Shown here piece by piece: positions 22,254 through 62,949 of a stretch of 64,000 nt of DNA. The notes under the pieces were generated by a model. It was not told the DNA's origin, searched no databases, and saw nothing but the letters and a program-made list of their open reading frames with translations. A program made the position numbers and the translations under genes. The first letter of the stretch is position 1. Every line of letters starts with the position of its first letter. Source of the stretch: Pezizomycotina sp. ARF18 (lineage: Eukaryota; Ascomycota); assembly GCA_002224055.1 (NCBI GenBank), contig AZLU01000003.1, positions 124,001 through 188,000 on the forward strand. The letters are read 5' to 3'.

Positions 22254-22693
22254 ATGTGCGTCACCATCACTTTTACCTCTTATGCCCTTTCCCCCGCACT
22301 GCAAGCAGGGGCTACGGCAAAGCACCCGAACAGGAAAGCAACATCGTGCGCGTTTTCATCGATGAGAACGCCTGCAAGGGTACTCGGAGCTTGCGCCACG
22401 ACACCCTCTACTTCGTCCACGTGGTTGGCTACAAGTTCCAAGAAGACGCAGGTCATAGTTACTACGCGCGCTGCGAAATACCCCTCTGCCGCCAGTGCGA
22501 ACGCTGGCGTCAGATTTCTTGGGAAGAGCGACAGGAGGGCAGTATTGCCAGAAGGAAAGCTGTGATATGTGACCGCTTGAGACACTGCGGTGTGACGGAT
22601 ATTCAAACCATTCCGGAGGGTCTTAGGCCACGTCACATGGCTGCGCAACCCGGACGCGCTTCGAGTTACTGGATGTTTCCTAAGCCACCGTAG
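22254..22693 (+). CDS. Cysteine-rich Met-Cys/PKP family, copy 1
   Basis: First of ten related small proteins in the window. It begins Met-Cys at 22254 and carries the family marks: FYLLCPF near the N-terminus, VRVFIDENAC, the core VVGYKFQEDAGHSYYARC followed by LCRQCERW, then VTDIQTIPEGLRPRHM, and the tail SSYWMFPKPP ending at 22693. About one break, close to the start, separates the Met-Cys start from the rest; everything after it is open. A TATAAA element lies at 22119-22124, about 135 bases upstream. No signal peptide or membrane segment is visible. Function unknown. Confidence 0.7.
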
Positions 22694-23554
22694 GTATGAT
22701 TTAACACAAAGAATCCAGGGTCTTTCTTTCTCAGTTTTTGTAGCTAGATAGGGAGAACATTTGGTTTTGATAATTTGTTAAAAATTGGTAAAGATGAGGT
22801 ATATAAATAGATTTGTATGCTATGATATTATTATATTCCACTAGAGAATACTTTACTAGTAAGCGTATATGCAGAATTTCAGTAGCGTTGGAAAGGAGTT
22901 GGGTGTCAAGCTTAAGATTTATTATTTAGGTTGACTCGCACTTGGCATTGAGCTTGTTAATCAGAAGAAGAGCTTCATTTAAAACCTGTATAAAGCTGCC
23001 CTAGTACGGCCCGATTGCGCGTATGCCGGAAGAGCGGGACCGGAGGAAACAATCGGAAAGCTCACTGAAATTGGCACTTTACTTTGAACTCATTAGTGCA
23101 TGAAATATGTGAGAACCTTGGTAATAATACTCTTCAAGTTCTTTCGAGATAGCGATAGTACGATATCTATAGTACAATATCCATCATTGTGAAACTGTAG
23201 AGAAGCTTGCTTGCATTATTCTTCCACATTAATAGTCGTCTTTCGCGAGTCTGAACCTCAAGCCTCTTTTATTATTTTGACTTCTTACGTACCATACATT
23301 CACGAATTTATCTCAGATTGCCGCTCGGGGTTATCGAGAATTTGACTGCTTTGCCATGATCATGAAAGATATTTATTCTTCAAGCTCAAGAAGCTCAATA
23401 TTTTTGCACCCACTTAGTACCTATAAATCAACCCTCCCACGAATGATCGATTGGGTAAAATCTCAAGTCAACTCGTCCCCGATTCTTTCTAGTCTACCTC
23501 AAAATCCATACTCTGCACCTTTAATTCACAGGAACATATATTGAAACCCGAATC

Positions 23555-23971
23555 ATGTGCATTATCTCTCATATTTATCTTTCGTGTCCATTCTCTTCCG
23601 ATCGGTACAGAAGGGAACCCACCGTTCGCCAATGTCCAGAGTATGTGGACTGCGGTAGACCTGGATGCAGGTCTCGATGGAATTATGCCCATGACGTTGG
23701 CTATAAATACCAAGAAGACACGGAAAACCATTATTATGCTCCTTGTCAATCGGAACTGTGCTGTCAATGCCCAAGGTGGCGTGAAGTCATTGAGGAGATC
23801 AAGCAGGCTAATCAGAAACTCCAGAAAGTACGAGAAATTTTGCATAGGAGATTAGGATACGAATCGCTAACCGAGATACCGCGCATTAATACGGCTCTGA
23901 GGCCTTATCGAAAAACCAAGGAAGACGGACGAAAGTCTAGTCTCTGGACATTTCCTAAGCCACAATCATGA
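23555..23971 (+). CDS. Cysteine-rich Met-Cys/PKP family, copy 2 (intact)
   Basis: A complete 138-residue reading frame and the best reference member of the family. It starts MCIISHIYLSCPF. Residues about 20-45 hold two cysteines (VRQCPEYVDC and RPGC). The core near residues 49-77 reads VGYKYQEDTENHYYAPC then ELCCQCPRW, giving C-x5-C-x2-C. A basic helix follows (EEIKQANQKLQKVREILHRR), then LTEIPRINTALRPYRK, and the protein ends SSLWTFPKPQS. The four central cysteines plus the flanking aromatic residues could hold zinc, but no known zinc finger is matched. A TATAAAT lies at 23422, about 133 bases upstream, the same offset as in copy 1. I do not recognise the family, and no secretion signal is evident, so an intracellular protein is the simplest reading. 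Confidence 0.8.
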   Translation: MCIISHIYLSCPFSSDRYRREPTVRQCPEYVDCGRPGCRSRWNYAHDVGYKYQEDTENHYYAPCQSELCCQCPRWREVIEEIKQANQKLQKVREILHRRLGYESLTEIPRINTALRPYRKTKEDGRKSSLWTFPKPQS

Positions 23972-24284
23972 ACGCAATATCAAGCAAACCATGGCTAGTT
24001 CTTTCTACTTCCTCATATTTATGGAGAGGTTCCTATAAATGTGCTGTCTTTTAAGATGTATAATGTTAAATAGATCGCAGAATACCCTACTAAATTAGGT
24101 ATGAAAAAGGCCTTTCTTTAAGAGTACTTATATAATGAGAAACATGGGAGTATCATTTTATAAGACTTGATTTCATCCTTAAACTTTACCGAAATAAATA
24201 ATTAGAATAAATTCCCTTAGATTTAAGGGCTTACCCTGACCCAAGAACACCTCAAACCTATTGCGAAAAGTGAATTTCTCCGGG

Positions 24285-24321
24285 GGTTTTTTTTTTTTTT
24301 TTTTTTTTTGGGGGGGGGGGG
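24285..24321. repeat. T23-G12 homopolymer junction
   Basis: Five G, then 23 T at 24287-24309, run directly into 12 G at 24310-24321. Such a junction is rare in natural fungal DNA outside microsatellites and is a place where reads or assembly can slip. Confidence 0.8.
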
Positions 24322-24680: not shown

Positions 24681-25096
24681 ATGTGTATTATTTATCGGAT
24701 CTATCTCTCGTGCCCTTTTCCCGCCCGCGAAAACACGCGGGAAGAACATACCGCTCGCGTCTTCATAGATCGCAAAGAGTGTCAAGGTTTTAACGGGTGT
24801 CGGAAGTACTACAGAGCCTATGCCTACTACGTAGGCTTTCGGTACAGCGGAGACGGTAACAACTGGTATTATAAGCCCTGCAAACGGGGGCGATGTTGCC
24901 AATGCGAACGCTGGGGTGAGATCGTTAAGAAAATCGACGGCTGCCGCGATAAGATGCTCGACGTCAGGGATATTATACGCGAGGAAACGAACTACAAAGA
25001 CATTAAGGACCTCCAAAAATTGGAACCCGATGGGAGATACCGTATCAAATAGTCGAAGGAGGTACCTGGACCTTTCCCAAGCCACCACCAGCCTAA
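24681..25096 (+). CDS. Cysteine-rich Met-Cys/PKP family, copy 3
   Basis: Starts MCIIYRIYLSCPFPARENT at 24681 and keeps the family order: ARVFIDRKEC, the core YVGFRYSGDGNNWYYKPC followed by RCCQCERW, a charged helix (IDGCRDKMLDVRDIIREE), and the tail TWTFPKPPPA. It is open for 123 residues; one break near the 3' end separates that frame from the conserved tail, which ends at 25096. The last break may be an assembly indel. Spacing from copy 2 is about 1.13 kb, start to start. Confidence 0.7.
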
Positions 25097-25880: not shown

Positions 25881-26315
25881 ATGTGCCTTTATACCCACGT
25901 TTACCTCTTCTGCTCTTCCTCCCAACGCAACAAGAAAGCAGACCCCAAAGCTCGCGTTTGCCCCGAAGAGATTACTTGCGACGCAATGCCGCATTGCACG
26001 CGTAAAAATATATACGTTTATTACGTAGGATACAACTTCACGGAAGACGACGCGTGCTGGTACTATAAAATCTGCACGAACTTCGATTGCGCCCAGTGCA
26101 ACCATTGGACCAGGGCTGTCGAGCAAATCAGATTTTACAAAGAGAGTGATGAAGCTGGTATAAGAGATATTTTACTTCGAGCTGTAAGATGTCATGCCCT
26201 AACGGATATACCGCACATTCCTCCACCTCGGCTGCCGAGACATACGATGATGAAGAACAGCCGGGGAGAAATTAACAGTATTTGGGCCTTCCCAAAGCCA
26301 CTTCAGAATGGATAA
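25881..26315 (+). CDS. Cysteine-rich Met-Cys/PKP family, copy 4 (intact)
   Basis: Complete 144-residue frame. It begins MCLYTHVYLFCSSSQRNKK and has ARVCPEEITC near residue 25. The core is YVGYNFTEDDACWYYKIC followed by DCAQCNHW. It continues with LTDIPHIPPPRLPRHTM and ends NSIWAFPKPLQNG. It departs from the other copies in having CSSS where they have CPF. That it is open throughout, though diverged from copies 2 and 3, suggests that selection has kept the frame. No signal peptide, membrane segment or known domain. Confidence 0.78.
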   Translation: MCLYTHVYLFCSSSQRNKKADPKARVCPEEITCDAMPHCTRKNIYVYYVGYNFTEDDACWYYKICTNFDCAQCNHWTRAVEQIRFYKESDEAGIRDILLRAVRCHALTDIPHIPPPRLPRHTMMKNSRGEINSIWAFPKPLQNG

Positions 26316-27015: not shown

Positions 27016-27439
27016 ATGTGCCGTTACACTTCAGTTTAACTTATCTGCCTAAATCACGCGGCGGTACGGACCGCGTACAAGACTGCCTAGCTTATGTTTG
27101 CGTCGAAGATGTCGACTGCGGCAAAGTACCGCTGAGGTCTTGCGGGAAGAGACAGATCCACGCCATCTCCATAGGATCGCGCTACCTGGAAACCAACGAA
27201 TACTCAAATACTCGATCTGTAAGGACTTGGATTGCATGCAGTGCAGTGTATGGGCTAATACCGTTGAGTCCGTCAAGAATTTTGGCCCCAGTAATGAAGA
27301 GCCTAGATCAAAGGAAATCTTGCGGCAAAATTGGGGAAGGAGATAAGGGATTGGACCACATCCCTCAAAATCTGGCGCCGTATCATACTATGGAAGGGAA
27401 GAGAGCGTCCGGGCCTTTCCGAAGCAGCCTCAACACTAA
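27016..27439 (+). pseudogene. Cysteine-rich Met-Cys/PKP family, copy 5 (broken)
   Basis: The most decayed copy of the left array. The Met-Cys start (MCRYTSV) lies at 27016, after a cataaaat element near 26930. Family landmarks remain in several frames: VCVEDVDCGK, RYLETNEYS, CKDLDCMQCSVW, LDHIPQNLAPYHTM and a tail equivalent ending at 27439. I count about three or four breaks. Other copies in the window carry fewer, so this one may be truly dead. Confidence 0.65.
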
Positions 27440-28249: not shown

Positions 28250-31121
28250 TCAAAAGTGAAGAAAGAGAATTCGTTTATCATGAAGTTTATCCAAAAAAAT
28301 GTTGGAGAGGAGTAGAGCGATAATCACAAAAAAGGTTAAAGTAAGGGGAAAGAAAATAAGGTTATATATTGAGTAACTAGGAATGGAACCAGGCGCCACC
28401 TTCTTCCATATGAAGAACAGCGCGCAAGCCGTGCATGCCGTTATGCCCGCGAGGATGTACATGTTAGTTCTATCCACTGGTTCGTCCTCGCGCTTCGGAT
28501 ATGATGTTGCGGGCGATAACGCCGCTTCTGCGATCTAAATATAACGCAAACATTTAGTATACTTGCCGCACAATATCCAAGGAGCCTGCTTACCTGCACA
28601 AACAACTCCGATATAGTCTCCCACTTAACACTAACGTGCACGGGCGCGCTCATCCCCAGTTCCTCCGTATACGCATCCGGCTGCGACTGCGACCTCTGCG
28701 TCGTCTTATCTAGGTCCGCTTTAAGCGCCGCATACACGCTCGGCAGCTCATCCAGCTGCGGGTACTTGTTGCGCAGGTTAACGACGCACTCGAACGAATC
28801 CGGATCCGAAGAATCGTAGGTATAGCAGATCATATCGCAGGCGTTTAACCGGGACTCGTTTCCAGCACGGCAGGTTCGAGCTCGCCGAGCTCTTCGAGGA
28901 TTAGGTAGCACTGCTTCCCGCCTTGGAGCTCTACGCTGTTGACGACGGTGCGGGGTTTTATGGTGGGGCTGTAGGTGGAGTTGAAAGGGCGGTTTAAGAA
29001 GGCGTCGAGGAGTGCACTCTGCGAGCATGATCAGACTTCTATACACATATGCGTATGTTTCGAAGAAATGGGGGAAGGTATTTTTACCTTGCCGCTCCCA
29101 GGAGCACCCAGTACGTAGCAAAACACCACATTCCTCTCAACCTTCATCATCCTCTTCCTCCGCTTCCGCGGTTTCGTCACTTTCAACGCCGTCGTAGTTC
29201 CTCCTTGCTTCTCCGGGCTTTCGAACCCGAGGTACGCGAGGTACGCCAGCGTCGTCTTGGGGTCTTCGAAGGTCGTCATGCTCCACTGCGCTAACCAACC
29301 TTGCAGCGTGATATGTCCCGCTTCATTCCGCACCGTAGAAGACGGAAAGCTTGCGTGAATCCACGAAGGAGGAAGACCTGGCGTCGGAGCAAAAAGTGCA
29401 GCTAGCTCGGACGCGTTCAGTCCGCCGTCGTTGTCTTTGTCGAAGAGGAGGAAGAGGTCGACGAAGAAGCGGTAGCCGGCGGGGCTTAGTTCAGCTGAGG
29501 AGTTTGGCGGGACTTCGAACCTAAATCCGTGTTTAGTAAATTACAGACTTTGTAATGGCTGTAGAAAGGATGAACTACTTTGGATGTAAGAAGTCATCTC
29601 GTAGACTTAAGCTGTCTGTATAATGGAAAGTCCGCAGTATTGTCCACATTGTCTCATGCCGTCCTTTCTCCGCAAGAAGCGGTTTAGTAGCAAGAAGCCC
29701 TTCTCGTTTATACCCCGTTCGGTGACGGAGCTGGCAGACATCTTCTGGATGATCATTTTGATATCCTCAAGATCCGCTGACGCTAGGGTTTGTGGAAACA
29801 TTTCAACTGGTAAAATTGTCAGAAGAGGTTCTTAATAAATAGAAATTTCTGACTAATCTTCGAACCTGAAATTTCGATATTTCTTCATCATTCAAATACC
29901 CGTCCTGGTCTTTGTCGCTGAGGTCTTCAAGAAAAATGTTAGCCAGTTTGTCCATTTCTGTGTCTTTCCCCTTCCGGTTCAATTGCAAATCTTACAGAAT
30001 ATTCGTTTCAACGCCTCAACTGCAGCCGGTTTTAAGCTCTGTAACGATCAGTATTCCCCCATTCATCATAATTATAGCGTCGGTAGACGAACCTGCTCCT
30101 TCGAGTCGAACAGCGGCGCTATGGGATGCGTGACGGCTCTTTGCATAAATAAAAGACCTTCATGATGAGCGATCGTATTAGTCCGGCTATCCAAATTATC
30201 TCCATACCACGATACGCACCTCATTCACGTTCCAATGCTCCTTGGCGCTCGCTCGTATGCATGAATCGATCTCCTATAATAGTCGCGGGACTCAGTATCA
30301 ACTACAAGTGATATAACCAGATACGGAACTTGCCGTCCGAATACCTTGAATTCCTGCATTATCGGCATCATCTCCTCGTCGACGATTTGCGCAAGGTCTA
30401 CGTCGGGCCGTAGGTCGCCTTTGTTCGCGCATAATACGACCGGTAGCTATAAAAATTCCACGATTTTAGTGTTTTGCGATGAAGGTATTGCTTGCATGGG
30501 ATGGGGATCGTACATTTACGCCAAGAGATCTGAAGAATGGTAACCTGCCGAAGTCAGCTTTAAGTCCTTCGTACCGTTAGAGATTTTTAAAGCTCGAAAT
30601 TACCAGAATAGCGTAACCCTCTCGCAGCTCTATATTGCAAATGTACAGTTTATTAGCAATCGCTGTTCCTGGAGTTGTTTATAAGGGAAGACAGTCGGTT
30701 CCGTACGTAGTGGTCGGAGTAAACTAGTAGGATAACGTTGGCGCGCCGTATTTCCGTGCGAAGCGTATTACGTTCGTGCGGGAGAGCTGCAGCATAAAGT
30801 CAGTAATGCTCGTCAACTCCAACTGTTATCACCACTCTAAAGCTCGAGCAAAGAGTGGCCGTACATGATGTGTCGACGATGGTCGTAGTAACGTTCTCGG
30901 GAGTTCCTATGCTTGGCGGGATCGTGATCATCGGTAGGACGGATTGCAGGCCGGAAGGGACGAAGACGTCCTTAACGAGGGACATGATCAGGCTCGATTT
31001 CCCCGTCGCTTCATCGCCGCACACGACCACGCGGACCTCCGAAGCTGCAACAAGGGTGGGGAAGTTAGTATGGTTTTGCTAGCTAGGTAGGGGGTCGAGG
31101 GAGGGACGAACCACTAGCCAT
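28250..31121 (-). CDS. GEM1: GEM1 / Miro, mitochondrial Rho GTPase
   Basis: Gem1 is a tail-anchored outer-membrane GTPase of mitochondria and part of ER-mitochondria contact regulation. Domains in order on the minus strand: GTPase 1 with P-loop [11 protein letters not shown] near 31010; EF-hand 1 [12 protein letters not shown] near 29900; EF-hand 2 [12 protein letters not shown] near 29440, with [15 protein letters not shown] before it; GTPase 2 with P-loop GAPGSGK near 29090, split by an intron; and a C-terminal anchor [20 protein letters not shown] near 28400-28460. The ATG at 31121 gives M-A-S, with a first intron at 31111-31045 ending in TTGCAG. The linker near 29650 includes [20 protein letters not shown] and FLLLNRF. 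Several introns and about five frame changes are present. The stop at 28250 adds about 45 hydrophobic residues after the anchor, which is unusual, so the true end may be nearer 28370. The gene is divergent to GPI16. Confidence 0.92.
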
Positions 31122-31302
31122 CTCGACTCTGGGATATCTGAAGCTTCGAGGCTGCGTGCTTCATTCAAGTGCAAGTAGGTAGAAAGATCGTCTGTGAGGT
31201 TAATGATGAAGACGAGGGAGAAGGAGTGGACGGAAGTTTGTCTTTCCGAGCTTGTGGCGGATGCTTTTGTATGGAAAAGTCACAAGGTTTAAAATTGGCA
31301 GC

Positions 31303-31335
31303 TTAGTCTGCCGCACTGTCAGTGCGGCAGACTAA
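31303..31335. promoter_or_regulatory. Perfect 16-bp palindrome in the GEM1-GPI16 divergent promoter
   Basis: Arms ttagtctgccgcactg (31303-31318) and its exact reverse complement (31320-31335) are separated by one T. The site is 182 bases upstream of the GEM1 start and about 170 bases upstream of the GPI16 start, inside their shared 385-base intergenic region. It could be a binding site for a dimeric factor or a small fold-back insertion; the sequence alone cannot say. Confidence 0.7.
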
Positions 31336-31506
31336 AAGCTCCGAATGCCAAGCCACCCACTTAATTGTGGCGTAAATGAGGCGGCAAAGCCACACCGTTT
31401 AATAAGGAGCCGACACGGTTTCCTTCTCTCACGTCCTTCACCTTTCTTATCATCTCGGCCTCAAACCTACCATCCACCAAACGGCACCGACAATGTTGCA
31501 GCAAAG

Positions 31507-33504
31507 ATGAAAACATCACGAATAACTACCATGATCGGCTTGCCGTCATTAAGCCTCCAAATCCTCCTATCCCTCCTCTTCTCTCTCTCTCTTTTAACCT
31601 CTGCCAATGGCTCGTCGATAGGCGACTATGACGAAAAGCTCGTCCTTAAGCCTCTAAAAGGGCAATCGCTGTTAGCGACATTCAATTTCCGGAGTTTAGG
31701 ATCCGCGCAATCTTTCAATCGGCAAATGTTCCAGCTGCTGCCGAGAAGTCTGGGGCAGGTACTACACAATTCGAAAACGAGGGAGCTACACCTAAAGTTT
31801 ACGCTGGGCAGGTGGATGCCGAGCGGTGGGGGACTGAGCCCGAGAACGGACACACCGCTGGCGGTACCGGCGTCGAGCTCTGGGCTTGGGTTGAAGCCGA
31901 TACAGACGAAGAGCACGTATAACAAATCCAAAAACCTCTACAAAATACTAAAAAGCTATCGTTCTTTGCAGGGCGGAAGAACGATGGTCCTCACTAACAA
32001 CTCCCTCTCCGGCCTCTTCTGCGCCTCCCTCAACTTCATCGATGAAACGCGCACCATCCGCCCCGTCATGTCCTTCGAACCATCCGGCGATCACCCCCTC
32101 GAAACGCTCTCAAAATTACACCTCCTCCACGGCACCCTCCCCCGCGAGCCCGTCTGCACGGAGAACCTGACGCCGTTCCTCAAGCTCCTGCCCTGCAAAG
32201 GTAAGGCCGGCATCTCGAGCTTGCTGGACGGGCACAAGCTCTTCGACGCATCCTACCAGGCCATGTCCATCGACTTCCGCCCCGTCTGCAGCAGCACCGA
32301 TACCAACGACTGCAAGATCGAAATGAAGCAGACGATAAGCATGGTCGTCGACATCGAGCGGTCGCTGTACAGGCGTGACTCCCCCGTGCCCCGCCCGCCG
32401 CCGATAGAGCAGATGGCGTGCGACGCTTCGAAGAATTACGATGATGATGCTTGTTTCCCGCTGGATAATTCGTTCGATCCGCAGTGGAGCCTCTCGGACG
32501 TCTTCGGGAGGAAAATGAGGGGTTACTGCCCGCTTGCTGGGGAGGAACATTACCCGTCTGCCTGATTACGCCGTCGCAGAGGAACATTGAGTTTTCACCG
32601 GAAGCGAAAGTAGAAAAAATCAATGAGGACACACGGTGTTTCAAGCTCGAAGCGGATAAGGAGTTCGACCTTACGCTCACCCGCGCGGAACCGCAAGTAT
32701 TACTAAACCGCGAAGAGCCGCTGATATACGCCGAACGTACATTCACAGGCCACGGACAGGAACGCGGCGGGTACAAGCCGTCCTCCGTAACCCCTCCGCA
32801 TCGGAACCCGTTGAGCTAGTCTACCTCGAGTCACTACCGTGGTTCATGAGACCGTACCTGCACACGTTCTCCGCGAAACTCATCACTCCATCTTCAAGAG
32901 ACCGCGACGAGGACGTTAAAAAGCCGCAGCAGGGCGAACCGGAAGAAGTCAAGATTATCAAGGAGGTCTACTACAAGCCGTCGCTGGACAGGAAGAGGGG
33001 CACGCAGCTGGAGGCGCGCATGGTGGTGCCGCAGAATTCCTCCGTGCTGGTTACGTACGACTTTGAGAAGGCGCTGCTGCGGTACACGGAGTACCCTCCC
33101 GACGCCAACCGTGGCTTCGACATTCCGTAAGTTGCCCATAATTACCTTTTGATATATATACTACTCAATCTTAGTTTTAAGCTAATCATTACGAAAGTTC
33201 CGCTATAATCACAATCCTCCACAAAGATCCCAAGACCGGCGCCAGGCTCACGACCGCAATCCGCACGACCGCCCTCCTCTTATCCCTCCCCACACCGGAT
33301 TTCAGCATGCCGTACAACGTCATCATCTTCACTAGCACAGTCATGGCGCTCGCCTTCGGGACGATATTCAACCTGCTTGTTCGCCGGTTCGTGCTCATGG
33401 AGGATGTACCCAGGTTAGGTGTGAGGATACGCGGCGTGGTCCGAAAGCTCGTGGGTAAACTGAAGAGGAAGAGGAGCGAAGAAGACGAGAAGAAAACGCA
33501 GTAA
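31507..33504 (+). CDS. GPI16: GPI16 / PIG-T, GPI transamidase subunit
   Basis: Gpi16/PIG-T is a lumenal, C-terminally anchored subunit of the ER GPI transamidase. The start at 31507 (MKTSRITTMIG) leads into a signal peptide with a long Leu/Ser core (LQILLSLLFSLSLLTSANG). The mature part starts DEKLVLKPLKGQSLLATFNF. Family blocks follow: GTGVELWAWVEADTDEE near 31880, LTNNSLSGLFCASLNFID near 31995, PFLKLLPCKGKAGISSLLDG near 32172, RTFTGHGQERGG near 32740, LPWFMRPYLHTFSAKLI near 32840, and the C-terminal membrane segment NVIIFTSTVMALAFGTIF near 33320. Introns are at 31917-31971 and 33127-33197. There are about three frame changes; the first, near 31812, fits one missing G in a GGG run (GRWDAERWG is restored). 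The basic tail KLKRKRSEEDEKK is cytosolic. Confidence 0.93.
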
Positions 33505-34990
33505 ATAACTGAGGTTAGGGAAGTTTTGGTATATTGTAAAATAGATATTAATTGATTATATGTATCACAGTCAGCTTAAATTAACATATATCAGGATGGT
33601 ATTAGGCCCCACATAAGCAGGCACGACCTGATGAAGCTTGTCGCCTAGTAAAGAACTTCCTCAGGAAGGTCACGTGATAAGTAACGGAGTTGCCCGGGGA
33701 TGACTAATCCGCCAAGGCTGGCTAAAATCGAATGGCGGGTGAAAATTAATAATGGGCATTGTTTGTTTTCATCTAGGAGGAAAAAGAAAAAATAGCGGGC
33801 TAAAATTTTTAAAAATCCCTGTGCCATTCAAATAATTAAATTTTTTTTTTTTTTTTTTTTTTTTTAATAGAACCCCAGCAAAAAGGAAAAAATAGCCTAG
33901 AAAAAAGGCCGCACCTCCCACACCCAATAATAATAAAAAGTGGCAATAATAAAAATAAAATAAATAAATAAATAAAAATAAATTTTAATTCACTTCCTTG
34001 AATAACTCCTCAAACCATTCCCTCCTGCTCCTCCTCCTCCTCCTCCTCACTCTCCTCATCCCATATATATACTACCTCATATCGCCAGTTCCTTCTCGTT
34101 GTTTCTGGATTGTCCTATTGTTTACCCTCACCGACCTCTACTAGAATCGTTCGGGATAGCGCCGAGGAGGGGTCACGTTTCATATTTCCCAACCTGAACC
34201 CAGTGGTAGATACCCGTCATAAATTCGCCCCCGCAGTCGACCTCCTTATCCAAACGATCAATTCGCTGTCAATACGTCTTCACGATCATTCGACGTCGTT
34301 TTCAAACCATTCGCAGTCGTTTCCCAACAGATCAATTGAAGTCTGTGAGCGGTCGAGAGTATGAGGAACTAAAAGCAGTCCAGAGGAGGGCAGGATTTTT
34401 CACGAAACGAAAGAAAGAGCATCTTAATATCGCCCTTGTTAGATGTCGTCTTGAGGATTTTTCTTTCTCTTTTGATTCTATCTGAGAAATATTTCTTCCT
34501 TATCGTCGTCAGTTCTCTGCATCGTCACCATCAGTATACATAGAAACCTGAGAGAGCCTCTTACGTATATTTTTTTTTTCAGATATATACGTGCGCGTGA
34601 TATAGTGTAGAAGAGTGAGCGCGCGTTTCTGCGTCTTTGTATACCTCTCTTTATATTATATTTTTATTTTATCTATCTTCCTGTTGGTGAATCTTCAGGT
34701 AGAAGTCGTAGCAGATATCCTCTTCATCATCATATTTTTTATTATATATATATATATTTTTCTTCGAAACGCCAATAAATCCTACCTTTGCGTAAGCAAG
34801 ACGAAACCCTCCAAAATCGACAATAGAATACGACCACAACTACAACCTCCAAAACACCATCCCATCTTCCATCATCAACGATACCAACCGTTATATATTT
34901 CTCTCGCAATAACTAGAAGGTTGCCGTCGAGAATTGCCGTATCTGAATTTCATTATTGGGGAGGTAGAAAGCCATAGAAAAGTTATCACA
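33505..34990. other. Intergenic region with T25 run and CT microsatellites, BYE1 leader
   Basis: No gene seen. There is a run of 25 T at 33841-33865, an aataaataaat stretch near 33950, a tcctcctcc microsatellite near 34020-34045 and TATA-like patches near 34070 and 34745. The final 400 bases are CT/CA-rich, as in a long fungal 5' leader. An ATG at 34991 followed at once by a consensus donor (ggtaagt) may be a tiny first exon of the next gene. Confidence 0.5.
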
Positions 34991-35136
34991 ATGGGAGGTA
35001 AGTTGCACAACCCACATTCCAGCATTTTCTTTCTTTCTTGGTCCTTTTTATTCTTCAAACCAGCAACAAATAGTCAACAATTCATTTCTTTCTTTCTTTC
35101 TTTCTTTTTTCCTTTCCTTCCTTTCTTCTTCACACG

Positions 35137-46280: not shown

Positions 46281-46620
46281 TTTCTGTCAAGAGGAAGGAT
46301 GATAGAAGAGCGTTTGAAACACCATGGCCCTAGACAACCTAGCCCTCTATATTATGAGATTTTAGGACAGCATTATGTCGCCTGTCTCTACGTCATGGTA
46401 GATTCTGGAGCCTTTCTAGGCCCTCGCGCCGTGAAACAAACTGTAATCGCCCCAGACTTTTCGTTAAGGTTAAGTTCGAGAACTTTCCCATGGATAAGGG
46501 AAGAGCTATATATAAAACCCTCTTCAAGCTTCCATGGCATTCTTATACAATAAGAGTATCATCTTCACGCTTCGTCCGAAGTAAAATACACGGGCTGGTT
46601 AATTAAAGAATCTCGTATTC

Positions 46621-47177
46621 ATCGAACATGTCGTCTCTCTTTGCAGCGGCCGAAGAATATTACATTTCGCCGACGGCGGCCCTCAACCTCACCGGCCGCC
46701 GCACCATGAGGTTTCAGCTCAAGAGCATCCTGCTCACGTGCCGCGACGGTCTTCCCTTTCCAAGTTCAATCCGATGAGCCTATTCAAGAGCAGGCGCAAG
46801 TCATCGGACAAAGGAAGTTCCCAACCCGCGGCTGATTTACCGGATTCGGAAAAGAACCAAGCCATTTCTGCCGCAACAGCCGCGATGGGTCAAGCCTCAA
46901 ATGCAAGCGCAAGCGAGGGGGATCAAGCCTCATCTGAAGACGCTGAAAGTCAAGCACCGCCCTACGAGTTGCTAGCGCTGGTGGTCTCCAAGCTACCCCG
47001 CCAGAGAAATTTAAAAAAGCAGACGCAAGTAGAGTTTTTGAAGGGGCAAATCAGGGTCCAAGCTGCACCTCCAAGATCGCCAAAAACGCAGAACCGGTGA
47101 CCTCACCGGTAGGAATCGACGACGAGCTTGATATCAAAGTGACGTCGACTTCGTCCGAAAATTACCTCTTCATGTAA
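46621..47177 (+). CDS. Unrecognised Ser/Ala-rich protein, probably a late exon
   Basis: A plus-strand reading runs HFADGGPQPHRPPHHEV, then HVPRRSSLSKFNPMSLFKSR, KSSDKGSSQPAADLPDSEKN, a Ser/Ala/Gln-rich linker, and PPYELLALVVSKLPRQRN. After one frame change it ends EPVTSPVGIDDELDIKVTST and SSENYLFM, with a stop at 47175-47177. A good acceptor (tctctctttgcag) at about 46634-46646 suggests that an exon starts there, but I could not place the upstream exon. No domain recognised. The basic, serine-rich N-terminal part looks like a phosphorylated, disordered regulator, which is only an impression. Confidence 0.5.
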
Positions 47178-47403
47178 GTTTTATATGATTGGATTTGATT
47201 TATTGACGTGATACAATATTCTTTCGGTCCTGTTCCGTCTGTATCTACTGGTGTATATATTGAAGGAGCTTCCCCTGGAACCCTGCTTTTCGCTCGGATT
47301 AATATATCTTCCATCATTACACCAAAAACCCTACAACTCCTCCATCCTACATACTGTCCAAAATAATAATATCCTAGCTTCTCATCCTTGAACATCACTA
47401 ACC

Positions 47404-49187: not shown

Positions 49188-49774
49188 AGCGAAAACTCTT
49201 AGTAGTACGTTTTTTTAATATTAAAGAGATATATAGATTGCTTTGAAAGAACTAACTAGAAGGGTAAAATTAACTGCAATTAGAACTTCTATTCGCAGGA
49301 GACCGCTTAGATTTGCCTAAGCCAGAAATCTGTTAATATTTTACAAAGCACTATCGCTTTGCAAAGTCAGGAGAATGTTAGCTGCGGGGACACCTGGGTA
49401 GTTTTTTTTCAGTATTGCTATTTGGTGGTACAAAGGTGAATAGGAAGAGAGATAATTGAAAACGAAACGCTATGAATTTCCTAAAGAAAACATAATTATT
49501 TTTAACGCTTTATGATGACGGTCATGTTTTGTATTTACAAAAAAATATATATATATCTAATTTCAAAAGATCCTCCGCGTGAAAGTTAAAACCAATCCCC
49601 CAAACGTAGAAAAAGCACCACCACATCCCCACCACCTCATAGATCAATGCCACCTCCCACCAGAAGCCCACAGATCAAACATATCCTCCTCCTCCTCATC
49701 CTCCTCATCCTCCTCATCCTCCTCACCATCGCCTTTCTCCTTATCATCATCCAACTCCATCTCGCTCCCCCTCC
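49188..49774. other. Convergent intergenic region with CTC-rich microsatellite
   Basis: No independent gene. It holds the 3' ends of SLM1 and of the minus-strand zinc-finger gene. A tcctcctca microsatellite at about 49683-49730 gives serine-only readings that are not real coding sequence. Confidence 0.55.
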
Positions 49775-50610
49775 TCAACACCATACCACCCCTCCACCGC
49801 CACCGTCCCCTTCCTTCGCCGCCATCTCCATCCGTAACCTCTCCCTCTTCTCCTTCAGCGCCCTAACGCGCTCCTCGAGACTACTCTGCTCCTCGAAGAA
49901 CTCCGCCATCCGCTCCTGCGCGTCCTCCTTCTCTTCCGCGTCTACATCTCCCGTTTTCGTAGCCGTCGCTGCGGCGGCTTGTGCCGCGGTCATCGGCGCC
50001 GCTGAAATAACCGCATTTGTAGTTGCTGTTGTTGGTGCTGCGATAGTAGTAGCTTCGGCAGCGGCTTCGGTCTCCGCTATATCCGCTTGAAACGCCTCCC
50101 ACTCCGCGTCGATGTCCTTCACTGGCGCCGATTTCCCCGCGAAAAAGTCGGATGGTAACGCTATTTCCTTCCTCCCTTCCACCACGACATCATCCTTCCA
50201 TCTTTCACAGTAGGAACAGCCGTATCCTCCACTTCTTCCTCCTCATCGCTATCATCAATATTAACCCCCCCATCACCGAAAAACCCCGCGGGTAAATTAA
50301 CGTTCATACTCCGTCCCTCCGCAACTTTTACTTTCTTCCTCGCCCCACCTCCTGCTCCCTCGCCATCGCCGTCATTAGTAGAGATACCACCGGGAGGACG
50401 TTTCGCCGCTTTCGGTGGTGGTTTATTAGCGACGTTCTGCCGGTGTTGCGGGGTGCGGGTGTGAGCTTCCCAGAGGGATTCGGACTTTATGGGTGCGTTG
50501 GAGCATGCGTTGCAGAAGAGCGCGCCGGCGAGGGAGTAGGTTGCGTAAGGGGAGGAGATACGGCGGGAGGCACGGTGGGAGGCGAGGAGGCGGCGGACGT
50601 CGGCTGACAT
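49775..50610 (-). CDS. ZNF830/CCDC16-like zinc-finger protein
   Basis: The ATG at 50610 starts MSADVRRLLASHRASRRI. A single U1-like C2H2 zinc finger follows: FCNACSNAPIKSESLWEAH then TRTPQHRQNV, that is C-x2-C-x13-H-x5-H. This N-terminal arrangement is typical of the ZNF830/CCDC16 family, nuclear proteins tied to splicing and genome stability in animals. The middle is disordered and basic, then NVNLPAGFFGDG with an acidic stretch (DDSDEEEEVEDTAVP). After one frame change near 50180 the C-terminus reads EGRKEIALPSDFFAGKSAPV, DIDAEWEAFQADIAETEA and a coiled coil SSLEERVRALKEKRERLRME. The 'LPxxFF' repeats and the terminal coiled coil match fungal orthologs. An upstream in-frame extension to 50718 lacks conservation cues, so I prefer 50610. 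Tail-to-tail with SLM1. Confidence 0.83.
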
Positions 50611-51643
50611 TTTTTGTTGTGGTTGTTCTGGATGTGAGGAAGGGAGGGATGAGTGAGTGTGAATGAGAGGTATCGGATCAATGGAACTGTCGATTGGATG
50701 AGATGTATCTGATGTCATGGAGATACTGGTATGATGATTGGAGAGGAGATCGTGAGATGAGATGGAGGTATAGTCGTAGTTATATATGTCGTGAAGTATA
50801 GGGATGTCGAGGTGTTGGTTGGATGTTTCGTGAAGCTCTTCGGGGACGGAGTAGTATATGCGGGAAGAAGGAAAGCTATTTTATTTTTCCCGTTTTCCTT
50901 GTTTTCTTTGACGCTCGTTTCACACAAAAATGCTAAGAACGCCGGGACAGAAACAACATGTGATACGTTCTCTAATATTCAATTAGTATGCGTATTTATT
51001 GTCACGATCACCCGCCGCTTAAATTAGGCGCCGGTACGCGGCAACCTTGCTTTCGGGTAGACTTCACGATCTTTTGACATCAGCAATTTTCAAACACTCC
51101 AAATCGAGAATATCGGCTTAACAAAATGTCAGATTACTTAGGTATGTATCACGACTATATATTAATGATATTTACAATCTGGCCTGTAGGGTGTCAGCCC
51201 AAATTCCAGTACTAGTTTGTAGGCCTTCGCTAAAAGGCCATTACATTGCTTAGACAAGGTATAAAAACGTTTGAAACCAAGTGAATTTCGGTCAAGAAAG
51301 CATCAATGTACATACCGCTTTTCCTCTTGAGTAACTGTATTCTTCATGCCGAAACGTTTTGCAACTCTCAAGCAACAAAAGCACTGCTTCTGAAGTATTT
51401 GAGTTTCATATTGTGAGGTTCAAAAACAAAATCTGACAGTTTAACTTTTCTCTTATTATAATTATAATTATATTGTTAGCAACCTTACAAAATTGAAACC
51501 ATAGCTCAAAGCTGGAGTGAAAAGCAAACGCTTTAAAAGCAGGAGTAGAAGGCAGAAATGGTGGGGTATTCTCCTGCTCCTCTAAATTCTCTATTCGGTT
51601 GAGTTAGATATACTAGAAATCGAGATCAAACATTTAAAAAAAA

Positions 51644-52894: not shown

Positions 52895-53376
52895 CTAGAC
52901 ATCATAATACCAATAACCATCACTCTTTATCATGGCTGTCCAGGATCTATACGTCCAAATTTGCTTCTGTACAGTCCACCATCCCGGCCCGTTTCCATCC
53001 GGCGCATTCGTATGGAACGGCTCCCAACCGACGGTTTGGGAGGTCCCGCTATGTAACGATGCGAGGCCCGTCCTATCGAGAAGTAGCCTCCTTTTATCCT
53101 TTCTTGATATCCTATGATCCTCTAGCGTCGCAACAACCTCCTCCACCGCAGACACTGTTGCAAAACTCGTGTTCACATTTCGTATAGTACGAATTAGCGT
53201 CATCCTGATGATAAAGAAAGCCGATATCATAAGCATGAAGTTCGTCCATTGGCAGCGCGTAGGATTGACAAGGTGGCAGGAGAGGCGTTCGATCCAAACC
53301 GGCAGATCAATCCTTCCCGTACCTCGCCGCACTTGGCGAAAGGGCAGGAGAGATAAAAATGATATCTAATACACAT
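52895..53376 (-). pseudogene. Cysteine-rich Met-Cys/PKP family, copy 6 (broken)
   Basis: First member of the right array, read on the minus strand from the ATG at 53376: MCIRYHFYLSCPFAKCGEVR. Other landmarks persist in different frames: ELHAYDIGFLYHQDDANSYY then TKCEHEFC, LDRTGLASL, and the tail PDGNGPGWWTV. About two or three breaks. The N-terminal CPFAKCGEV stretch is shared with copy 7 (CPFARCGDV) and not with the left array, so copies 6 and 7 are close relatives. The 3' end is approximate because the tail motif is altered. Confidence 0.65.
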
Positions 53377-54169: not shown

Positions 54170-54584
54170 CTAGTTCTTTGGCACTGTCCACCAGCCAGCG
54201 CCCTATCATTCTGCACACTCGTGTGGAATGGCCGCCGTTCCAAGTCTGGGATAGATGATAGATTCTTGAAGCCCGCGCGCTTCATTATGAGTTCCCTTTG
54301 CGACTTTCCGCCCTCAACGGATCAGATATTGCCTAATGAGCTCACGCCATCGCGGACATTGCCGGCAAAGCTCCGTGTCGCATAGCGTATAGTACCAATT
54401 TTGGTCGTCTTGGTAGTAAAGATAGCCCGATAGTATGAGCCTCGTAGTATATATATTTGCAGTACTGAGGTTCACTGATGACGCAGGGCTGCCGTTCAAT
54501 GTAAACGCGGGCCATCTGTGTTTCCAGTACGTCGCCGCACCTGGCGAAAGGACAGACGAGATAAAAATGGTAAGTTTTACACAT
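54170..54584 (-). pseudogene. Cysteine-rich Met-Cys/PKP family, copy 7 (broken)
   Basis: ATG at 54584: MCKTYHFYLVCPFARCGDV, then ARVYIERQPCVISEPQYC. The core is well kept in a second frame: GYLYYQDDQNWYYTLCDTEL followed by CRQCPRW and ELIRQYLI. It continues with AGFKNLSSIPDLERRPFHTS, and the conserved tail GWWTVPKN ends at 54170. About three breaks. Despite these, every family landmark is recognisable, so either the breaks are recent or they are assembly indels. Confidence 0.68.
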
Positions 54585-55535: not shown

Positions 55536-55932
55536 CTACGGAGGCTTTGCGACCGCCCACCAGCCAGGTGTCCCATTCGGGCCATTGATATAAAAGGCCC
55601 CTGAATAATCCTTGGGACATCTCTTAATCTTTCGAAGCCCCCGTGCCTCAGTATACGTTATTTTTAACTTTTCGGCTTCATGTGGGTTACTTAGAAGATT
55701 AATTAACTCGAGCGACCGCGGGCATTGAAGGCATAGTTCTGCGTTGCATTCTTTATAATACCAGTAGTTATTGTCCTGACGAGATTTATAATCTATAACT
55801 CGAGCGCTGAAATAGTCTTGGCTGCAACGGGTTATACCGCAAGGAATACGATCGAGGAAAAGACGAACGGGATCCGGTTCTGCGCCGCCATCAGTGAAGG
55901 ACACGCCAAATAAAGCGATAATAACGACACAT
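55536..55932 (-). CDS. Cysteine-rich Met-Cys/PKP family, copy 8
   Basis: A Met-Cys start (MCRYYRF) lies at 55932, and after about one break near the N-terminus the rest is open. Landmarks: PDPVRLFLDRIPCGITRC, VIDYKSRQDNNYWYYKEC, ELCLQCPRSLELI and the tail GTPGWWAVAKPP ending at 55536. It differs from the core consensus in having IDY in place of VGY. The upstream spacer to the divergent partner is about 139 bases, longer than for copies 6 and 7. Confidence 0.68.
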
Positions 55933-57143: not shown

Positions 57144-60100
57144 ATGTCGAAGGCAAAGACTTTTTGGGAGCAAGCGCGGGAGAGGTACGCAAAGGAAATT
57201 GAAAATACGAAGGACAGACAAGCCTTCGAGGCATCTTTCGACCCGAAACGAACACCCGAGGAGTTCATAGAAGCGGTGAAGGAAGCACGGAGTAATCGCT
57301 CCGACAGCAAAACTGCCAAGGCGCTGGATACACTCGACTCCTTGCTGACGCCGCTCCGAGAGCTGGCACCAGTCTTCGATGTCCTGACGCAATGAATTCG
57401 ATGATTGGGGCCGCGATTTGGGGCCGCTGAAACTGGTTATCACGGTACGTAACACGCGCATTTAAGCCTTAAAAGTAGAAGAGAGGAGGCGAAGGGGAAA
57501 AACTTGTTCTGACAGACCAAACAGGTTCTCCAGCGACGATCGGATGCCCTGGAAATGCTTGCGGACATGATCGGTCTACTGGTCACAAATGCCCAGCGGT
57601 ACCTCGCATACGAAAAGGTTCATGGCGATAGTACGATGGTGCGGGAGGTGCTCGTAAACTTCTACTTTGACATGATCGATTTTTGCGCACGAGCGGTACG
57701 GTATTTTGGTGATAACATGCTGAGACGCATCGTCCGGGTCTCGGTAAAGGCTTCGGAGACGAGTTCAAACAAGTTAAGAAAAGCATGGAGCGCCACGCGG
57801 GGCAGTGGATATGTCAGCGATGGCTGCGGAGATGGAGAAGGCAGCGACGGAAAGACGAGACGCGAAGACAGAAAGAACCGAACAGATGAAGATTAGACAA
57901 AGTATGGAAGCGAACCCACATACTATTTTAAGGACTCTTAACAGATGACAGCTAACGCGAAAATCAAACGAAATTAAAAGCCGAGCGCGAACGAGATGTT
58001 CGTCGCTGGCTTAGTCCTGGTGATTATAGCAAGCGAGAGCACATCCGACGAAAAAGGACAGGGTAGATGGGACATGCTCTTGGATCCTAGAGCACGGATT
58101 CTTCAAATCGTGGATATCAGAAAACATACCGATGATAAGAGGCTGCTTGGATCCACGGTAAACCAGGCGCGGGGAAGTCGATGATTGCGTCTGCTATCGT
58201 CAACGAGCTTCAATCGGCGGGAAAACCTCACTTGTACTTTTTCTATAACGGCAAGGTTAGCTCTGATACTCACGCAGCCCCATTGGCGTTTGCTAAGGCG
58301 TGCGTTTTCGGCATGTTGGACATATTACCAGCTGCTATCGACATCGTAAATGCCGAGATGCACAATTCAGGAGATCCAAGGGCGTCTTCATTTGAGGCAG
58401 TATGGGATCTATTCAGACAGTGCCTCAAGAGGAGGCAGGAGCCTGTCTTCTGTCTCGTCGACGCAGTGGACGAGTGCACCGAATGCGAAGCACTGACGGA
58501 ATCGATAATAGAAATGGTATCAGAGGAGGAGAATATACGTTTCTGCGTTATTAGCCGCCTCACTCGGATATTAGAAAAAAATTATGCGTGCGGTCGAGGA
58601 CAGAGATTTACGTCTTGCGGAGATACAAGTCGCGACAGAACGCGTCTGCAACGATATTGATCAATACTTGAGGGCAAAGATTCTTAAATCTCGGATTTTA
58701 CGCAGTGCTGGTATCATAGATCACGTGTCCGAACTAGCTGAACGCGCAGGTGGTATGTTCATGTGGTAAGTGATATATTTTGCCAAGTAATTAGAATTAT
58801 TGAGATCTAATTGCAGACTTGCTTTAAGGGCTCGCCTTATGCTCGAAGAGCTCGAGAAATCAAAGACTCCCAACGATAGACTTGAAAAAGCTTATGAAAA
58901 CTATGCCCGAGGGCTAGACAGCATCTATGATGCCATCTTCAGAAGGCTCTCAAGATGAACAACAATGACCAGCAGCGACTGCACAAGATACTTACTGGTT
59001 GTTCAAGTCCAATTGGAGGTCAAATCTGACAGTAGATGAGCTAAACGTCGCTCTGGCAATTCGGTGGGAGGAAAAGGATCTCGATAGAGGCAACATGCTT
59101 GAGCGGCCGAAGGATGATATTCTCTCCCTATCCTCACCACTCGTAGAAATTCTGCAGGACAATACCGTCCAGATCGTCCATCTTTCTGTGATAGAGTACT
59201 GTATCCAACACCCGGGGGCGTTTCCAGCTAGCTTTGCCTTCAGCGAACAACGGATGGCGATGGAGATGGCGACAGACTCTCTAACCCTGCTATCGTATGA
59301 AACGTATTCGGTTACATCTTTGTTCAAGCCCTACGAAATGTGGAAGAAAAATCTTGTGGTGGTACTGACAGCAAAGATGCCACATCCCTCGAGCTGTTTG
59401 AATATGCAGCCGAGAATTGGTGGAAGCATTGCAAGAGTGCAGTGGAGTCTCGCACTCCTGCCGATGAGCTTTTAAGGTTAAGCCAGCACATGATCCAGTT
59501 CCTCCAGTCCGATAAAAGCCTTGTTTGGTTTGACTACCTTAGCAATAAGTATGGAAGTCATTCCTATTTCGCAGAGCTGAACTTTGCTCTGGATTGTTTC
59601 GAAACCACAGATGAGCCTAAGCGCGGAGTTTCCACGTTGCTGCGTAATCTTGCGGAACGGCTACACGTATACATGATTAGAACGTATGGGGAAGATCACT
59701 ACATCGTGACGCGCAGCTTGCAAAGTCTGCTAATCGTCCTTCTAATGCAAGACGATTCTCATGCGTACGCAGAAGAAGTTGCATTAAAACTCCTTGAAAG
59801 AGGAAGTCCACACTAGGCGAAGAGCATGAAAAGACACTATCTTCAATGGAATTCCTCATGTACAATTACATGTGTCAGGGCTCGGAAAAACTCGAGGAAG
59901 CTATGGAATTAAATTCGAGACTGTTGAATATACATAAGAGGATATTCGGCGACAGGCACCCCTATACCCTCCAAGATATGCACAACCTCGCGGTTGGTAT
60001 GTGCGCCAGGGCCGTTATCCGGAGGCGGAAGCATTGGGGGCCCAGTTGCTGAAAACGCGGACAGAAATCTATGGCGAAAACAGTCTGCTTACATCGAAAG

Positions 60101-60742
60101 CTATGATTATCCTGGCATATATTCTTGGTCAGCAACGTCGGTGGGAGGAAGCACAGAAATTACATTCACAGGCCGTACAATACTATAAAACCAAACTAGG
60201 ACCACTTCATCCAGACACCATTAAAGAGACAATAGTATTGGCAACAGTTTACACATCCAACGGCCAACACTCAGTGGCAGAGAGTCTTTTCGTGTCAGCC
60301 TTGGATTCTTATCGAAGTTTACGACTAAACCAAGAACATGACGATATTTTGGGCGTTATGCGTGATTTAAGGAGAAACTTCGAAAAACAACGTAAAATCG
60401 AAAAGGCGCTGAACCTTCAAGAGGATATACTAGTAATTTGCAAGAAAAAGTACGGCGGCGATGTTCCTTCGACACTTTTGATCGAGGAGAAGGAAAATCT
60501 TGCGCGCTTATATTGTGACATACGCCCGACTTGAAGAAGCGGAATTGCTCAGGAAAGAATTGGTAGGTTTTTGGACCGAAAGATGCGGTGAATACGATCG
60601 TAAAACGCTAAACAACATGCGGAACCTCGCGATCACCTACTCTTTTCAAGAAAAATGGAGAGAAGCTGTGGATCAGATGGAGAAAGTAATTACTATGAAG
60701 CTCGAATCGAATGGCAACCTAAAGAGGGAGAGCCCACGATAG
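57144..60742 (+). CDS. Fungal NLR-like STAND protein: Goodbye/DUF7708-like, NACHT, TPR
   Basis: NLR-like STAND proteins sense non-self or cell damage in fungi. The ATG at 57144 starts MSKAKTFWEQARERYAKEIE. The N-terminal helical domain contains an IWGPLKLVIT motif near 57410, then an intron (57445-57534) and LEMLADMIGLLVTNAQRYL, LVNFYFDMIDFCARAVRYF: the Goodbye/DUF7708 pattern. The NACHT domain has a Walker A GKPGAGKS at 58157-58180, Walker B FCLVDAVDE at 58448-58474 and RFCVISR near 58540. After an intron (58766-58816) comes SIYDAIFRRLS and a winged-helix-like part. The C-terminus has kinesin-light-chain-type TPRs: IHKRIFGDRHPYTLQDMHNL, EALGAQLLKTRTEIYGENSL, RWEEAQKLHSQAVQYYKTKL, KIEKALNLQEDILVICKKKY and EEAELLRKELVGFWTERCGE. 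At the second splice junction the spliced codon would be TGA where Trp fits. About six or more frame changes in all; broken, or mis-assembled like its neighbours. It sits between copies 8 and 9. Confidence 0.85.
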
Positions 60743-61178
60743 AAGATGATCTAAATCGATCGCAAGGATGGCGGTTGCATATTGTATGACCTAGCTCGAA
60801 TTCTGCTTCAAAAAGTTCAAATCTATTCAATGCCTCGAAAAGGTATGGGATGTGTGGTTTTCCGGGGTATAACGACGTTTAGTCATGATATAATTATACT
60901 TGAGTAGTTATAATACTTTTCTTTTTCCCATACCCCATTTTGCATTTCTTATCTTGTTTTACAACTACTTGATTAAATCTTAAGCTGCCATATTCACATT
61001 ACCTATGTAAAAATCTACCCCGGCGCTTGTATCAGCCATCAAGCTGTGTTATAACACCATTATTAAGAAAAGGAGGTAAATCAGGCGCTAGTTATATTCC
61101 AAGTAACGAAGGGAAAAGAAAAATATCTTGCAAAGGTCCTCCTGCAATATAATGAGTAAATTGGTCTTTCTTTACCGC
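60743..61178. other. Intergenic, no gene seen
   Basis: AT-rich 3' flank of the NLR and of copy 9, which converge here. No supported reading frame. Confidence 0.5.
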
Positions 61179-61560
61179 TCACCAGCCAGGCCTTTCCCCG
61201 CTCGGATCAAATTTTGAACTGGCTGCCGAGTAAGGCGTGGAAAATTTCTTATCGTTGTCTAGCCATTGCGCTTTAAACATACAGCCCGCTTCATGGCGCC
61301 GGGCATAAGAGGACCTATAATTTACCAGCCAACTCACGCCACTGTGGGCATTGGGTGCATAGCTCTGCGTCGCAACGTTTGTAATACTAAATTTCCTCGT
61401 CTTCACGCCATAGAAAGCCTATAACTTCAGCCTCATAAAAACAAGATCGCAGTAGCTAGTGGTACAGTAGGAATTTTCACAGTAAAGGCGAACAGGTGTA
61501 GGTTCTGGCTCCATTCCAGCTGCGAAATTGCAGGCGGATAAAAAAATATCCAGTCTACAT
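61179..61560 (-). pseudogene. Cysteine-rich Met-Cys/PKP family, copy 9 (broken)
   Basis: Minus strand. Recognisable landmarks in several frames: RLDIFLSACNFAAGMEPEPT, PVRLYCENSYCTTSYC, GFLWREDEE, YYKRCDAELCTQCPQWREL, then AQWLDNDKKFSTPYSAASS and the start of the tail (SGERPGW). About four breaks, the most of any copy in the right array. The PEPTPVRLYCE stretch is closest to PDPVRLFLDR of copy 8. Probably a true pseudogene. Confidence 0.6.
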
Positions 61561-62532
61561 ATCCTGTGGCTGTTTTTCGTCAAAATGATCAGGATTTTCA
61601 ATGGCAAAGCTTGAGAGGAGATCCTAAGATTTTCAGTAAAGGTCAATTAAAGACCATAGAAAGGAATGTAGATAAAGACACGTCCTGCTCTGGGAAGACG
61701 AGATTATATGATATTATATTCTATCATACTAGTAAAAAAGATTGTTCATTTAGTTCGAAGTTTGAGTACAATAGAAATGAAACAGTAGTGATTTCCCTAT
61801 ACAATAAATAAAGACTCGTTCACGACATCATCCAAAGCAAACGCAAACAAATGATATATTATGAAAAGTGTTTGGACGACAACCCACCTCCAACTCTGTG
61901 GGCGCACTTTTTGGTGATATTCGAATCTTAGTACCGGACTCTGAACCGTATTTTCTTGCTACAAGACGCTATAGACATACCAGAATCTTTACAGAGAGTT
62001 TAAGAAGAAAGAAGAAGAAGACAAAAGAGCGGTTATAAGGATGATAGTATCGCTTTAAGTAACCCGTATTACAAGGCTTGTATAGACGTATTACTAAAAT
62101 AATATTAGAAAATAGCAAAGAAAAAGAAAAGAGACTAGCAGAAGCTGAACTCATCTGACCTTAACATCTTGCTTTTGATCCTGCCCACGCGGGAAATGCT
62201 TTTTATTTTCCTCCGCTTTTTTTGTTTAGTGTCCATTTTACGATACTTAGGTATCAGATCGGTAGAGTGAAGCTGCAAGGCGTCTTCGTTACAAATCATC
62301 TGCCCAGATACTGTCCAAGAGAGGTCATTTAGCTACGGGCGATTTTGCTTCTATTAAGCGCCGTTGGCGAATTCTTCCAGATAATCACAAAGTGAGACGG
62401 ATGATTGGACGATTACGCTAAATTAATCGCGAAAAATTTATTAACTTATTAAATAGATCTACATGCGGAAGTTACACGCCGTAAAATGTTTACCGAACAC
62501 CTTATTTGTTCTTCTGTTAGCCACTACTCGCT
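61561..62532. other. Spacer between copies 9 and 10
   Basis: A plus-strand open stretch near 61566-61811 (for example KIFSKGQLKTIERNVDKDTS) lies where partner units sit beside copies 6-8, but its sequence does not resemble them. It may be a diverged partner or chance. The rest, up to 62532, has no supported gene. Confidence 0.35.
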
Positions 62533-62949
62533 CTAGGAATTTAAATTCACCGTCTTCGGTACCGTCATGAACCTCTCGCCCTCTCTTGCGTTCCGCGGCG
62601 CCGGAACCGTACTGTACGGCTTTGCTGAGACCTCTGGGATTTGGGTCAAAGAATTTAAACCGAGCCTACTTAAGAGCATCTCTATTTTATATCCGCGGCT
62701 ACCTGTGCTAGGGTCTTGGAGATCAATAAGAAAGTCGAGCAACGGGCCACAATACTCACAGGGACAAGGTTCCCTATAGAACTTGGCATTCTCGTCCTCC
62801 CAAAAAAGGTATCCCAGATAATGGGCGTATATAGGCGGCCGCCGATCGCAGGTCCGGGCACCACAAGGCGCTCCCCTAAACGAGAAGACAAATTGGGTTT
62901 CCCTCGGAGAGCAGAGGCATGTAAAGTAAATGTGGCGCTCCCTGCACAT
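62533..62949 (-). CDS. Cysteine-rich Met-Cys/PKP family, copy 10 (intact, divergent)
   Basis: Complete 138-residue frame from the ATG at 62949: MCRERHIYFTCLCSPRETQF. It keeps the family order but is the most divergent: GAPCGARTCDRRPPIYAHYL, core LGYLFWEDENAKFYREPC with PCEYCGPLLDFL in place of the C-x5-C-x2-C-x2-W pattern, LNSLTQIPEVSAKPYS, and the tail RFMTVPKTVNLNS. The second half of the core has lost the QC..W element, and the tail has VPKT for FPKP. An open frame in spite of this divergence suggests a retained function, perhaps a changed one. Confidence 0.72.
   Translation of the reverse strand: MCRERHIYFTCLCSPRETQFVFSFRGAPCGARTCDRRPPIYAHYLGYLFWEDENAKFYREPCPCEYCGPLLDFLIDLQDPSTGSRGYKIEMLLSRLGLNSLTQIPEVSAKPYSTVPAPRNAREGERFMTVPKTVNLNS

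Follow-up and report, generated by a model that had tools for sequence, protein, structure and literature searches.

We analysed a window of 64,000 nucleotides from the genome of the fungus Pezizomycotina sp. ARF18, namely positions 124,001 to 188,000 of contig AZLU01000003.1 (C3), in an assembly of 46.4 Mb and 408 contigs. Its gene content, with intron-bearing Gpi16 and Miro-like genes, numerous NPHP3_N loci and a weak SesA-like domain, points to a fungus and probably to a filamentous ascomycete. Within this window lie ten members of a family of small cysteine-rich proteins, together with the end of an eleventh (Table 1). They form two arrays, with five genes on the plus strand (A1 to A5) and five on the minus strand (B1 to B5), as the first-pass annotation of this DNA had proposed: the starts of our profile alignments, at 22254, 23555, 24681, 25881 and 27016 (plus) and at 53376, 54584, 55932, 61559 and 62949 (minus), agree with its coordinates to within one base, B4 (61559) being aligned from its second codon only. 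The three copies it had listed as open are A2, A4 and B5. Most of the plus array is located in an AT-rich stretch, with a G+C content of 0.38-0.39 at window positions 24001-28000 versus 0.48-0.51 at 28-38 kilobases (kb).

Table 1. Family members in the window, neighbouring genes, and frame-split chaperonin genes of the same assembly.
Feature	Position (window, unless a contig is named)	Strand	Remarks
A1	22254..22690	+	Met-Cys start; single frame change at codon 3, rest open
A2	23555..23971	+	open, 138 residues
A3	24681..25052	+	open for 123 residues; C-terminal segment in another frame (by eye)
A4	25881..26315	+	open, 144 residues
A5	27016..27337	+	lowest score; 2 frame changes, 1 in-frame stop
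B1	52952..53376	-	4 frame changes, no in-frame stop
B2	54173..54584	-	4 frame changes
B3	55542..55932	-	2 frame changes near start
B4	61193..61562	-	ATA at start codon position; 2 frame changes, 2 in-frame stops
B5	62536..62949	-	open, 138 residues
B6, 3' end only	63973..64000	-	continues outside the window (C3:187973-188223)
EF_assoc_1 (Miro/Gem1-like), Gpi16, PHD and SPOC, BAR_4	28441..50880		between the arrays; family matches
NPHP3_N/NACHT and TPR protein (NLR-like)	58139..60742	+	between B3 and B4; several frames, weak winged-helix match
Cpn60/TCP1 chaperonin genes	contigs C24, C53, C54, C99, C20, C139		frame-split

The copies were scored with a hold-out profile of 13 rows, all from outside the window, using a frameshift-tolerant alignment written for this analysis; the noise level was taken from 20 order-1 Markov copies of the window, one strand each. 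The ten copies are the top ten in the window, at 72.9, 62.8, 59.0, 55.7, 55.7, 55.2, 53.0, 52.4, 40.3 and 23.3 bits, followed by a peak of 20.4 bits, and the maximum of the Markov copies is 22.6 bits. Thus, the proposed similarity is above chance for nine copies (40-73 bits) and barely so for A5, to which the value of 23.3 bits belongs. With the full profile, A5 reaches 49.5 bits versus 24.6 for the top of three shuffles. Using A2 as a tblastn query, we retrieved A1, A3, A4, B2, B3, B4 and B5 at E-values (E) of 6e-21 to 3e-6 and B1 at 0.024, and missed A5.

The initial description of ten copies in two arrays turned out to be too small. First, C3 alone holds three blocks, namely the five plus-strand genes, a minus array of seven genes (five whole in the window) that extends past the window end, with further copies at 188.0 and 189.3 kb, and four plus-strand genes at 211-215 kb (the D block). 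Second, a list compiled by hand from the tables of tblastn searches with family proteins and of a profile scan of the fetched loci (33 peaks in 20 loci) contains 69 copies, which form 22 clusters distributed over 20 contigs. The profile detected 43 of these copies, 33 of them outside the window and 10 within it; the remaining 26 come from tblastn only, with E-values of up to 0.04. Apart from its weakest matches, the count is a lower bound, the best candidates having been scored. The list excludes weak matches on contigs C82, C4, C13 and C10, whose best E-values were 0.048-0.24. The conservation counts, the codon-position test, the tree and the test of frame-change columns described below are based on a set of 41 aligned copies, namely those detected by the profile except for two weak peaks (L054:6141, 30.2 bits, and L057:2904, 28.5 bits) that are included in the 69; 18 members were scanned against family libraries and for hydropathy.

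Family proteins measure about 100-160 residues where open and contain four to ten cysteines each (18 members). They share a near-invariant frame, M1-C2, C11, C33, C38, G49 and Y-x2-C-x(1-5)-C-x2-C, the C-terminal half being more variable. Among the 41 copies, the residues of this frame and two further positions were counted as M1 38/38, C2 38/39, Y8 31/38, C11 40/40, P12 34/39, C33 35/37, C38 34/39, G49 39/41, Y61 36/41, C64 40/41, C66 38/41 and C69 38/40, so that the seven cysteine columns and the Met-Cys start are retained in 87-100% of the copies. The cysteine frame is near-invariant although the 17 other rows of an 18-row alignment are just 18-39% identical to A2. A Met-Cys start had been described for all window copies; it is encoded as ATG-TGY in nine of them, and B4 has ATA-TGT in the family frame, with codon 2 being TGC in five window copies and TGT in five. 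A tryptophan after the last cysteine and a W-x-F-P-K-P end, also put forward as shared marks, are present in part of the window copies and do not hold in the wider family.

That the family has no name, as initially suggested, is borne out by the 18 members scanned, which gave no credible match in Pfam, NCBIfam or PDB. Nothing exceeded the curated cut-offs of Pfam-A (best E 0.024, in a single member) or the cut-off of NCBIfam (best E 0.021, in a single member), and the best profile match among PDB chains had an E of 0.35. PHROGs gave nothing credible either, with one match at E 0.0029. The expanded family is real, and unnamed in Pfam, NCBIfam, PHROGs and PDB. In the part of the literature reached by word searches there was no description of such a family, which is weak evidence of absence. 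Unnamed small proteins that start with Met-Cys and carry a later C-G-H or CxxC are common in the proteomes of filamentous ascomycetes. They resemble the present family in their Met-Cys start, in a second cysteine about nine residues on and in their small size, but have C-G-H where the window family has C-P, a distinction made by description only. The lineage-specific expansion suggested by the first-pass annotation may hold; the sequences searched for relatives were those of the genome itself and of prokaryotes, viruses, phages and plasmids.

With regard to cellular location, a rough hydropathy test of the 18 members revealed no long hydrophobic or signal-like stretch, the highest 19-residue values being 0.09-1.33. 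Because such a stretch is missing, the cysteines would be expected to be reduced and cytosolic, and thus suited to zinc. The conserved cysteines are candidate metal ligands, which fits zinc binding and is no proof of zinc. Known zinc domains, such as Zn2Cys6 and zinc ribbons, have paired cysteines like the C-x(1-5)-C-x2-C and C-x(1-4)-C found here; however, no Pfam zinc family was matched; one of the 18 members came nearest, with an E of 0.066 for the CSL zinc ribbon. Judging from sequence features, the family members are probably intracellular, putative zinc-binding proteins. In the mechanism that we propose, the seven cysteines would bind zinc, Cys2 would be a zinc ligand fixed beside the start codon, and the variable tail would carry specificity.

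The tree of the 41 copies supports several local groups, namely A2-A5 (96/96), B3-B4 (96/81), a pair on contig C214 (100/99), three copies on C87 (97/96) and C88 with C279 and C311 (100/98). B5, B6 and B7 group with the D block and not with B1-B4 (91/98, below the starred level), in a group joined by two rows with long branches, from C187 and C86, and A1 is placed near B1-B2 without support. Labels of genomic place require 10 changes on this tree versus 19.6 in shuffles, a value as low occurring in none of 200. At the DNA level, B1 and B2 are 64% identical over 581 nucleotides, including about 150 nucleotides upstream of the start. Comparison of the window with itself at E 1e-3 gave no match between the plus and minus arrays, and no inverted repeats of at least 30 nucleotides were found within either array region. 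The local duplication suggested by the first-pass annotation is therefore supported as tandem duplication, since physical neighbours are often nearest relatives on the tree, and its idea of an inversion or translocation turning one array into the other is not, given the differing tree groups, the lack of a DNA match and the lack of inverted repeats. Neither array mirrors the other, and two subfamilies seem to be mixed in the minus array. Such a family would expand through tandem duplications and lose copies locally, in a process of birth and death.

Many copies have broken frames. In the window, A1, A5, B1, B2, B3 and B4 carry 15 frame changes, 14 of them of the missing-base type, in 3,950 aligned nucleotides (3.8 per kb), and the change in A3 falls after its profile-aligned part. 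Frame changes occur in 26 of the 41 aligned copies, 55 in all (4.1 per kb), in addition to eight in-frame stops; A5, B4, D2 and one copy on C88 have both. To interpret these breaks we turned to conserved genes of the same assembly. The Gpi16 gene between the arrays (window 31588-33130), whose matches are confined to one place in the genome, occupies three frames with no gap wide enough for an intron, both by profile and by eye: the DNA segments matching profile stretches 6-320, 76-112, 303-386 and 384-489 abut or overlap and are in different frames. Reading by eye gives four frame changes in about 1.54 kb, or about 2.6 per kb. A coarser count over eight Cpn60_TCP1 chaperonin loci plus Gpi16 yields 14 frame changes of this kind in 10,845 matched nucleotides, 1.3 per kb, which is a lower bound; it includes two changes for Gpi16 and none for one chaperonin locus. 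Gpi16 and the chaperonins are essential in other organisms and are thus unlikely to be dead here; therefore, small indel errors are probably numerous in this assembly. Many of the family frame breaks would then be assembly errors rather than dead genes.

Taking these results together, we consider it reasonably probable that the window samples a genome-wide family of small intracellular, putative zinc-binding proteins spread by birth and death, many of whose broken frames would be errors of the assembly. Several observations weigh against this reading. First, the cysteine and frame counts depend on the alignment profile used. Second, short N-terminal segments of the 18 members are mildly hydrophobic, with nine-residue maxima of 0.29-1.87. 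Third, arrays B and D taken alone are not clearly clustered on the tree, values as low being obtained in 27 and 43 of 500 label shuffles. Fourth, the frame-change rate of the family (3.8-4.1 per kb) is nominally above that of the conserved genes (from the coarse lower bound of 1.3 to about 2.6), so that genuine pseudogenes may be among the copies, A5 and B4 being the first candidates. Fifth, frame changes in the family are not enriched at homopolymers (mean run 2.69 versus 2.70 at random); homopolymer errors, the usual signature of long-read error, are thus not supported as their cause. Sixth, the sister copies B1, B2 and B4 each have a change at profile column 79 (window 53125, 54329 and 61321). 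One copy on C88 also changes frame at this column, and four copies at one column have a p of 0.11 over the 55 changes; it is possible that the coincidence in the window is due to chance, or to a change inherited in the B1-B4 group.

The last three observations, together with the 26 frame-changed copies, the eight in-frame stops and the four copies that combine both kinds of lesion, could be expected if the family were mostly a graveyard, expanded once and now consisting of pseudogenes apart from a few open copies. We regard this as rather unlikely. Genes as conserved as Gpi16, present in a single place, and the chaperonins change frame in the same assembly, and the broken copies resemble the open ones in two respects. 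Cysteines are retained equally in copies with none, one, and two or more frame changes (93/99, 71/74 and 99/104, respectively), and in each of the 39 listed pairs conservation is lowest at third codon positions, including pairs in which both copies have at least two frame changes. This test used pairs with at least 38% identity over at least 60 columns, many of which share a row and are not independent, and the pattern would look no different if the genes had died recently. The broken copies are thus not demonstrated to be pseudogenes. Two further explanations of the frame changes are not favoured, namely programmed frameshifting, which the mid-gene frame changes of several copies had brought to mind, since the 55 changes are scattered along the alignment (no column has more than four, p 0.11, and no three columns more than five, p 0.62) and conserved genes also change frame; and introns, since among the ten copies every recorded change is a one-base step, with nothing of intron size inserted.

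A different concern is whether these proteins work outside the fungus. Lineage-expanded families of small cysteine-rich fungal proteins are typically tandem, diverged and secreted, and the present family shares with them small size, richness in cysteine, tandem arrays and diverged copies. This outline would agree with secreted proteins that act outside by an unconventional route. However, the first of the conserved cysteines is already at residue 2, within the region that a cleaved signal would occupy, and the hydropathy test found no signal-like segment in the members checked, which makes secretion improbable.

Equally doubtful is that the family provides sensors or helpers for NLR (NOD-like receptor, NACHT) immune receptors of fungi, with its arrays placed beside NLR genes. 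In favour of it are the NPHP3_N/TPR gene between B3 and B4, and a weak SesA-like open reading frame (ORF) about 4 kb past the D block (L047:1805-2680, at about 219.8-220.7 kb of C3; E 6e-4, 20.4 bits, below the cut-off of 26.3). Nevertheless, only one of the 22 clusters has one of the 76 NPHP3_N loci of this genome (merged by eye from the matches) within 20 kb, versus about 1.6 expected by chance, and we dropped the association. Among ten long ORFs near other clusters, Pfam gave the weak SesA match only; those of 316-342 residues at L048:2572-3597, L049:6358-7383, L050:1158-2153, L044:5115-6080 and L053:1650-2597 had no Pfam match. Elsewhere in the window, the Miro-like gene (about 28441-30200, minus strand) shows several frame changes that leave no space for an intron, as read by eye only, and an ORF at 12162-12617 has a TYW3 match of 24.6 bits versus a curated cut-off of 27. 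Finally, the dispersal of the copies over 20 contigs might recall what a mobile element or virus carries or leaves behind, an origin that is very improbable in view of the lack of inverted repeats of at least 30 nucleotides in the array regions, the single weak PHROGs match, the many neighbours that are each other's closest relatives, as expected of tandem duplication, and single-protein scans that found no relative of A2 or of a C88 copy among IMG/VR and GTDB contigs, none of A2 among plasmids and none of the C88 copy among phages.

We return, therefore, to intracellular, putative zinc-binding proteins, for which a role can be proposed at most tentatively: they might serve in recognition or regulation inside the cell, with selection that shifts over time, for example in the response to nonself or to stress. 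A bolder proposal, which we hold to be quite doubtful, is that they represent a large undescribed cytosolic class, with an obligatory metal-binding Cys2, a zinc core common to all members and a tail free to diversify, forming a dispersed, tandem-amplifying recognition repertoire of at least 69 genes. The seven-cysteine Met-Cys frame allows a clear test of zinc binding and of the importance of Cys2. Regardless of function, broken frames alone should not be read as pseudogenes in this assembly. If the small Met-Cys proteins of other ascomycetes are kin, the family would be older than this lineage; and with some 69 or more members lacking a Pfam or NCBIfam model, it makes up a sizeable unlabelled share of one proteome.

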